Shown one piece after another: positions 33,126-35,332 of a stretch of 35,332 bases of DNA. The translations under genes and the position numbers were made by a program. This DNA is from Clostridiaceae bacterium. GTDB taxonomy: Bacteria; Bacillota; Clostridia; Saccharofermentanales; DTU023. The notes under the pieces are model-generated. The model was not told the DNA's origin, did no database searches, and was given only the letters and a program-made list of their open reading frames with translations. The stretch spans positions 1-35,332 of the forward strand of contig DUPE01000017.1 in NCBI GenBank assembly GCA_012838475.1, read 5' to 3'. Within the stretch, counting starts at the first letter, position 1; the number at the start of each line of letters is the position of its first letter.

Positions 33126-33329
33126 TCGTCATATAACTAACATCGTTTTGACATGGCTAATGTTAATAGTGTGAATAGCCTTGATGAGATACGCACAAAA
33201 AGCTGTAACCAAAGCGACTAAAGACTATATGTGATGATGTGATTATATTAACAAAATGTGGATAGTAACACTTAATTAATATGAATTTTGCTGTCCATTT
33301 GATGAGCATTATTGAAATGGGGATCTGAT

Positions 33330-33800
33330 TTGAGCAAAGAAATCAAGTTAATAGCCAAGAATCGCAGAGCTTTCTATGAGTATGAAATTTTGGATACGGT
33401 TGAAGCAGGTATTGCTTTAACCGGAACCGAGGTTAAGTCTTTGCGCCAAAATAATCTATCTTTTGCTGATTCCTGGGTACAGATAAAAAATAACGAAGCC
33501 TATTTGATCGGTATGCATATACCGCCTTATGATCAAGGCAATCGTTTTAATGTCGATCCTTTACGCGAGAGAAAGCTTTTACTGCATAAAAGTGAGATAA
33601 GAAGGCTAGAGGCTGATATAATGCAAAAGGGATTGACCTTAGTACCAGTCAAGATTTATTTTAAACGAGGCTTGGTTAAACTGGAGGTCGGTATTGCCAG
33701 AGGTAAACAGCTTCATGATAAAAGGCGCAGCCAACAGGAGCGAGAGGCAAAACGCGCGATTGAATCTAAAATGAAAGAGCAACAGAAAGGTTTCGATTAA
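33330..33800 (+). CDS. smpB: SsrA-binding protein SmpB (probable TTG start 33330)
   Basis: 'KNRRAFYEYEILDTVEAGIALTGTEVKSLRQNNLSFADSW', 'HDKRRSQQEREAKRAI'. Confidence 0.97.
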   Translation: MSKEIKLIAKNRRAFYEYEILDTVEAGIALTGTEVKSLRQNNLSFADSWVQIKNNEAYLIGMHIPPYDQGNRFNVDPLRERKLLLHKSEIRRLEADIMQKGLTLVPVKIYFKRGLVKLEVGIARGKQLHDKRRSQQEREAKRAIESKMKEQQKGFD

Positions 33801-33803
33801 TAT

Positions 33804-34949
33804 ATGGCCAAATTATTGATGTTTGGATTAACTGACTCTGGAACATCCAGCAAAGTCAATGAGGATACATTTTCCTGTCAAGGCAGAATTTACCCTGACA
33901 TGATTTCCGGGCACGAAGAAAAAAGTGTCGGATCTACTGACTATTCACAGCTGTATGTTATTACGGAAGGCTTCGGCGGTCCTACTGTCGGAGACTTGTC
34001 CGGACGTGTTGCACAATCACTGGCTCATGAAATGGCTAACAATCTGGATGCCTTTAGAAGTGATACCTTAGATTTCGAAGCTTTTGCACAGGAATTTCTG
34101 ACAGAAGCAGACCACCGAATTAAATTACAGATCAAAAATAAATCTAAGCAGCCTGCGGGGACCTCACTTTGCCTGCTATTGATTGACGGCAACGAAGCGT
34201 ATGTTGTGAACATCGGCAGCACCTCATCTTTTCTTTTTCGTGAGGATGAAGTTTTACGCCTGACTAAGCCCAATCTTGGACAAAACGGAATGCCTGCAAT
34301 CTGGCTTGGACAGGATGGTCCGCTGGAGCAGAAACAACATCAGCCCAGCATCAACCATCTTACTCTCACTCCGGGGGATATAATTCTACTGACGACACAT
34401 AGTGTATACAGTGCCTATTCTTGCGCGGAGTTAAAGCAGGAATTCATCTCTCCTGATGCCTTCACAGGAACCATCCGTTCTATCCATGAGAATAGCGTTA
34501 AAGGACGGGAGCGGACTAACCACACAACTTTGGCAGTTAAGGTGCAAAACCTTGATCTTAATCATGTGACACCACGGCTGGTTAATGCCGGCAAAGCACA
34601 AGATACTATGCCTAATCCCTATAAAAGGCCCAATCAGAATCCCTCTCAGACGCAAGACTATAAAAGCGGATCTTATAGAGAAAAAGAAGCTGCGGAAGAT
34701 CTTTACGACAATGCTCTTAGGGCTGCCAGCAGGGCGGCATCAGCTGCGCAAGAGCACAACTCTCAAGGCAGTCGCAATATGCAGGATGGAAATCATAGAC
34801 AGGGGAGAGAGTATATGGATGATTTTGACGACAACTCTGATCTCAGCAAAGAAGAGAATCCTTTTTCCACCTTTTTCCGCTCTTTATTATTGGGGTTCTT
34901 AATAGGCTTGGTGTTATTGCTTATTGTCTGGATTTTCCTGATAGGGTAG
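33804..34949 (+). CDS. PP2C-like (PPM) pseudophosphatase with a C-terminal TM helix
   Basis: PP2C-like order: 'SSKVNED', 'LYVITEGFGGPTVGDLSG', 'AYVVNIGSTSSFLFRE', 'GDIILLTTHSVYS', 'RTNHTTLAVKV'; then a linker and 'LLLGFLIGLVLLLIVWIFLIG'. Confidence 0.75.
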   Translation: MAKLLMFGLTDSGTSSKVNEDTFSCQGRIYPDMISGHEEKSVGSTDYSQLYVITEGFGGPTVGDLSGRVAQSLAHEMANNLDAFRSDTLDFEAFAQEFLTEADHRIKLQIKNKSKQPAGTSLCLLLIDGNEAYVVNIGSTSSFLFREDEVLRLTKPNLGQNGMPAIWLGQDGPLEQKQHQPSINHLTLTPGDIILLTTHSVYSAYSCAELKQEFISPDAFTGTIRSIHENSVKGRERTNHTTLAVKVQNLDLNHVTPRLVNAGKAQDTMPNPYKRPNQNPSQTQDYKSGSYREKEAAEDLYDNALRAASRAASAAQEHNSQGSRNMQDGNHRQGREYMDDFDDNSDLSKEENPFSTFFRSLLLGFLIGLVLLLIVWIFLIG

Positions 34950-35128: not shown

Positions 35129-35138
35129 ATGCTATAAT
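35129..35138 (+). promoter_or_regulatory. Extended -10 promoter element for ssrA
   Basis: TATGCTATAAT (TGnTATAAT) about 22 nt before the tmRNA 5' region. Confidence 0.6.
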
Positions 35139-35159
35139 TAATATAGTTCAACCTCGAAT

Positions 35160-35332
35160 GGGAGCGTACTGGTTTCGACGGGGTTATTGCAACTTGAGAA
35201 GCGGGTAGAGGATTCTCGTTGGCCTCTTAAAAAAGCGAGAAACTTTTAAATGCCAATAAACCGGCACTCGCCGCAGCATAGTAGCTGTAGCCGTCACCTC
35301 TGAAAATCTGCCAACAGAATCAGTGACGTCAT
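35160..35332 (+). ncRNA. ssrA: Transfer-messenger RNA, 5' portion (3' end outside window); predicted tag ANKPALAAA
   Basis: 5' 'GGGAGCGTACTGGTTTCGACGGGG' tmRNA signature; tag ORF GCC AAT AAA CCG GCA CTC GCC GCA GCA TAG TAG. Confidence 0.95.

Follow-up and report, generated by a model that had tools for sequence, protein, structure and literature searches.

A bacterial tail-anchored PP2C-like protein encoded downstream of smpB is most likely a PPM pseudophosphatase

The window, which is the whole stretch of 35,332 nucleotides that we analyzed, comprises an entire contig (G000:C106) and carries near its end, in order and all on the forward strand, smpB, a gene for a PP2C-like protein and the 5′ part of ssrA. 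smpB occupies positions 33,312 to 33,800 (162 amino acids from a TTG codon at 33,312, with an alternative start at 33,330) and matches PF01668 at 33,351 to 33,779 (E = 5.8e-59). Its stop codon (33,798 to 33,800) is separated by 3 nucleotides from the ATG of the PP2C-like gene, which runs from 33,804 to 34,949, encodes 381 amino acids and is present in 32 of the 38 genomes of its family. A putative Shine-Dalgarno-like sequence, AGAAAGG, lies ahead of this ATG within the 3′ end of smpB (33,786 to 33,792), and its GAAAGG portion is retained among the g1 orthologues. The ssrA (tmRNA) gene at 35,158 to 35,332 is truncated because the contig ends inside it; RF00023 matches 173 bases (35,160 to 35,332; E = 4e-21), and the tag ANKPALAAA is legible at 35,252 to 35,281. 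The coordinates and the RF00023 match thus confirm the gene order proposed by an earlier sequence-only reading of this DNA, which had placed the gene 3 nucleotides past the smpB stop codon and ahead of the tmRNA gene.

Upstream of ssrA we identified an extended −10 element, TGCTATAAT (35,130 to 35,138, forward strand), as its probable own promoter. Shuffled sequence equaled the best sigma-70 score of the window in about 4% of trials (77/2000), and the match is weak by itself; the recurrence of TGCTATAAT at four other family loci (L002, L004, L037 and L053) is the stronger point. Because the element precedes ssrA and recurs in this way, ssrA is probably also transcribed from a promoter of its own.

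Residues 1 to 250 of the protein (33,804 to 34,553, forward strand) form a PP2C/PPM-fold domain, predicted mostly at pLDDT 75 to 95 in an AlphaFold2 model built with 27 family members. In a Foldseek search with this model the best PDB match was tPphA (2j86; E = 1.5e-15; TM-score 0.81 by target), the matches also included PstP, Stp1 and other PP2Cs, and tPphA and PstP ranked above SpoIIE, showing that the PP2C beta-sandwich fold is present. The AlphaFold comparison suggested at the first reading therefore returned a confident PP2C fold, and a g2 orthologue with an intact metal triad has the same predicted fold. Curated sequence models detect the superfamily weakly: the E-values of the window protein were 1.2e-5 with Pfam SpoIIE and 7e-4 with Pfam PP2C, and with the NCBIfam Stp1/PrpC equivalog NF033484 it scored 39.2 bits, under the curated cut-off of 230. 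SpoIIE (PF07228) is its best Pfam model (25.8 against a gathering score of 25, which the relatives tested did not reach), as would be expected of a spore or stress signaling regulator like SpoIIE or RsbU that targets an anti-anti-sigma factor. We consider such a role very unlikely, however, since relatives score better with PP2C or PP2C_2, the fold ranking favors tPphA and PstP, and the protein has an NED motif but lacks the N-terminal transmembrane (TM) domain typical of SpoIIE. SpoIIE is likewise a membrane-bound PP2C-fold protein, and its dimerization is linked to function, but its triad is intact and ten TM segments lie at its N terminus (PMC5468089, PMC12088040), its metal ligands being D628, D746 and D795 (PMC5468089), whereas the window protein has one C-terminal TM segment and no triad.

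The domain is followed by a disordered linker (residues 255 to 350; 34,566 to 34,853, forward strand), with pLDDT below 50 at residues 255 to 301 and 329 to 350, and then by a TM helix (residues 353 to 380; 34,860 to 34,943, forward strand) that ends the protein as a tail anchor, with about one residue past the hydrophobic core. The sequence-only reading had described a Gln/Asn/Ser-rich linker leading to a C-terminal TM segment; the TM segment stands, but the enrichment is only mild (27% of linker residues versus 19% in the PP2C domain), and “disordered” is the better label. The helix, which contains a GxxxG motif (GFLIG), makes the proposed membrane tethering well supported. A C-terminal TM helix with GxxxG and with Lys or Arg ahead of it is found in all g1, g2, g3, g4 and g6 sequences that reach the C terminus, and GxxxG is absent in g5 and g7. 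The Lys and Arg residues suggest that the PP2C domain is cytoplasmic, and GxxxG alone is a weak hint of dimerization.

Three Asp residues that bind the two core metals (M1 and M2) in PP2C enzymes are missing from the window protein. Codon-by-codon inspection placed E55 (GAA; 33,966 to 33,968) at the first, where DGxGG reads EGFGG; H199 (CAT; 34,398 to 34,400) at the second, where SDG reads THS; and T238 (ACT; 34,515 to 34,517) at the third, where DNxT reads TNHT. A fourth loss, overlooked in the sequence-only reading, concerns the third-metal Asp, replaced by S139 (34,218 to 34,220; GDS to GST). Alignment with intact paralogues puts E55, S139, H199 and T238 in the ligand columns, so that the substitutions claimed at first hold, and the alignment puts no Asp at these ligand positions, an outcome that does not refute the first reading. 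The phosphate-binding Arg of motif 1 was also said to be replaced by Ser, and S16 (33,849 to 33,851) is indeed there, but this is no fixed loss: the position varies in the family, with Arg in two g1 orthologues and Lys in g2. E20-D21 of the NED motif (33,861 to 33,866) is retained and is invariant in A1.

Since PPM enzymes require at least two metals, a requirement that accounts for the inactivity of PHLPP2 and TAB1 (PMC12002173), these substitutions give good sequence-level support to the earlier proposal that the protein is noncatalytic. One metal could still be coordinated by E55 together with E20 and the carbonyl of G56, and the protein might yet be an enzyme of narrow specificity with an altered or single-metal site that also involves H199. 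The first ligand position is E or Q in all 18 proteins of the clade formed by g1, g3 and g4, NED is invariant, and one g4 protein (L007) retains SDG, as such an enzyme might require. We nonetheless think it rather unlikely, because the second and third lost Asp sites vary over nine and six different residues within the clade (T, E, A, V, N and P at the third) and thus offer no conserved replacement site, and because of the two-metal requirement of the known enzymes.

A survey of relatives showed that the loss exceeds chance. Within the smpB-linked family the M1/M2 triad is kept in 6/6 g2, 3/3 g5 and 1/2 g6 proteins and in none of the 18 from g1, g3 and g4, whereas every ligand is kept in 15/15 housekeeping PP2C paralogues from related genomes, the triad is kept in 6/6 f4 relatives, and the domain of the ligand-less clade has a dN/dS of 0.04 to 0.11. 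Sequencing error or a frameshift behind the substitutions was ruled out by the 18 proteins and the low dN/dS. That the triad-keeping members are active is an assumption, because the third-metal Asp is missing in nearly all members of the smpB-linked family, theirs included. Homologues in family f3 (L051, L052 and L055 to L060) stand at varying stages of active-site loss, and some bear long Thr/Pro-rich tails beyond the TM segment.

With the ligand columns removed from the alignment, the tree recovered g1, g3 and g4 as one clade with support of 97/87, and the smpB-linked family together with f4 and f3 split from housekeeping PP2C with 100/100; the placement of g7 and of a LysM protein (see below), both on very long branches, is unsure. 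Because the triad state requires at least four changes on this tree, the triad was probably lost more than once, with one protein of g6 and some of f3 among the cases.

The ligand-less proteins of g1, g3 and g4 are under strong purifying selection. The dN/dS range of their domain given above spans all computable pairs, many of which are near dS saturation, and we lean on the close pairs (dS under 1) alone, which gave 0.072 (L003-L005), 0.039 (L015-L017) and 0.042 (L015-L018). Triad-keeping g2 pairs gave higher domain values of 0.12 to 0.15; in the ligand-less clade the linker is mostly at 0.2 to 0.5, compared with 0.11 or less in the domain, and the TM helix is at about 0.03 in close pairs. 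The ligands were thus lost in a lineage with triad-keeping relatives, and the protein was retained afterwards by selection. It is extremely unlikely, then, that the gene is simply decaying, the remnant of a former phosphatase that happens to have survived between useful genes: the active site is lost and the gene is missing from a few g4 genomes, but the low dN/dS of domain and TM helix, the absence of stop codons across 32 family genomes and the retention of the gene after relocation in g3 and g4 all speak against decay. Eighteen positions, including S12, M33, E39, N136, D218, A219 and R225, are invariant in the clade and seldom seen in g2 and g5, those at the extreme N terminus reflecting gaps or uncertain starts. 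Together, the drifting Asp sites and the newly fixed positions would fit a constraint that has shifted from catalysis to binding, with a surface under selection.

Bacterial PP2Cs of known type share the fold of the window protein and differ in other respects. The housekeeping Stp1/PrpC/PstP enzymes (NF033484) include its nearest solved structure PstP, alongside tPphA, but the window protein lacks all the metal Asp residues and does not lie beside a PASTA kinase, and related genomes hold a separate, intact Stp1. Outside families f1 and f3, its nearest relatives are the “DGMGGE” PP2Cs found beside Hanks kinases in Clostridia (L107 to L109 and L114) and the f4 proteins. The f4 proteins share its PP2C-linker-TM layout, and some “DGMGGE” PP2Cs carry a C-terminal TM segment; both groups differ in having intact catalytic residues, kinase or other neighbors and no adjacent smpB. 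At L107 and L108, from other Clostridia, the intact DGMGGE-type PP2C is clustered with a Hanks kinase, and L107 has a second PP2C nearby. We rejected the large f4 proteins as smpB-linked orthologues because they occupy a different genomic place. A search for related loci with the window protein alone found only four close relatives. Orthologues outside the order were likewise rejected: 391 genomes of the class, searched at an E-value bound of 1e-20 with 1.5-kb flanks, gave distant matches (best, 4e-32), and those read were intact PP2Cs without a nearby smpB. A phage origin was discarded because nothing matched among phage records.

The closest known parallels are TAB1 and PHLPP1/2 (PMC12002173), which also retain the PP2C fold, have lost metal ligands and have known active relatives; for PHLPP2, membrane association has been suggested as well (PMC12002173). 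Unlike the window protein, which is bacterial, tail anchored and encoded in an smpB operon, they are eukaryotic and either large multidomain or kinase-bound proteins. The PPM pseudophosphatases in the literature that we searched (TAB1, PHLPP and Cyr1) are all eukaryotic; that literature, whose coverage was incomplete so that absence is not proof, described no bacterial one, and the word “inactive” does not occur in the main text of a survey of bacterial PP2Cs (PMC12088040).

In all 18 gene-holding genomes of g1, g2, g5, g6 and g7, the gene lies next to smpB, downstream of it and in the same orientation, so that the arrangement is not confined to one genome. The gap is 3 to 6 nucleotides in g1 and wider in the other genera, with g2 start codons uncertain. 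This operon geometry supports the coexpression with smpB proposed by the sequence-only reading. ssrA lies directly after the gene in eight genomes (G000, G001, G002, G004, G009, G010, G014 and G020) and three genes further on in G015. Linkage to both genes is not obligatory, however, being broken for ssrA in g2, where it lies on other contigs, and for smpB in g3 and g4, where the gene has been relocated, mostly away from smpB, yet is still conserved. The relocated gene lies a few kilobases from ssrA in G007, G012, G013 and G028, and in G030 it and the smpB locus are on separate long contigs. The vacated smpB-ssrA interval holds an unrelated gene, for an isochorismatase (G030 and G034) or an alpha/beta hydrolase (G022), as at L092, L093 and L094, or nothing. 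We concluded that the smpB locus is ancestral and that smpB linkage is unnecessary for retention of the gene.

These data bear on whether the protein is a partner in ribosome rescue, one that binds SmpB or ribosomes stalled on membrane proteins and so brings trans-translation to the membrane, or that reads SmpB phosphorylation. The constant adjacency to smpB in five genera and the short g1 gaps favor such a partnership, as does the position of the f3 gene between smpB and ssrA (G049 and G179), where other genes intervene; the new neighbor in g3 is another RNA-related protein. That neighbor is an NYN plus OST-HTH/LOTUS gene, with which the gene pairs closely (about 28 nucleotides) at L042:6035-7940 and L043:6047-7943. 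Even so, we judge a rescue partnership unlikely: ssrA is elsewhere in g2 and bears a promoter-like site of its own, the gene is retained in g3 and g4 although it mostly lies apart from smpB there, and searches of titles and abstracts for PP2C with smpB or ssrA, or for SmpB with phospho-signaling, found nothing relevant. The same observations weaken the tie to trans-translation put forward in the sequence-only reading.

Rather, the protein is probably, in our estimate, a tail-anchored PP2C (PPM) pseudophosphatase that acts as a phosphoprotein-binding scaffold or decoy and is cotranscribed with smpB from an inherited locus. Its ancestor would have been a membrane-anchored, metal-dependent Ser/Thr phosphatase, and the triad would have been lost, most simply once, on the branch to g1, g3 and g4, with the protein retained. 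The N-terminal PP2C domain would sit in the cytoplasm, joined to the TM helix by a flexible linker some 100 residues long, and the GxxxG of this helix probably pairs with a second copy. It would work by binding, not catalysis, perhaps holding phosphoproteins or a partner of the Stp1-PASTA kinase pair at the membrane, or itself partnering the kinase or the phosphatase; a scaffold or decoy is a more economical guess than the sensor first proposed. We read the smpB link as shared transcription from the inherited locus and do not claim a direct role in ribosome rescue. Above curated cut-offs, Stp1 is present in 31/38 and a PASTA kinase in 29/38 family genomes, located away from the gene, whose neighbors are smpB and ssrA. 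In its own genome we found no housekeeping PP2C match; the assembly is probably incomplete at that point, given that the genome's PASTA kinase is likewise represented by no more than a fragment.

A second PP2C-like protein, of 665 amino acids, lacks catalytic ligands and carries a TM segment and a LysM domain. Its gene adjoins an ispD-like gene (L096:252-2246; G000:C42:9925-11919, minus strand), it is present in 38/38 family genomes, and a profile comparison (E = 6e-6; probability 85%) relates it to the family linked to smpB. The window protein might also be a membrane adaptor without catalysis that joins Ser/Thr phospho-signaling to ribosome rescue, beside this more degenerate LysM membrane protein, although we regard that as quite unlikely.

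Taken together, these results make the window protein, which comes from a group of uncultured anaerobic Clostridia, most likely a PPM pseudophosphatase of bacterial origin whose relatives are probably active, and they caution against annotating such genes as phosphatases. As one syntenic gene occurs in triad-bearing and triad-less versions, the point at which an enzyme became a pseudoenzyme can be mapped phylogenetically and tested by comparing individual proteins. If the protein is indeed an adaptor, the repeated loss of the active site among neighboring genera would be a natural experiment in pseudoenzyme evolution.
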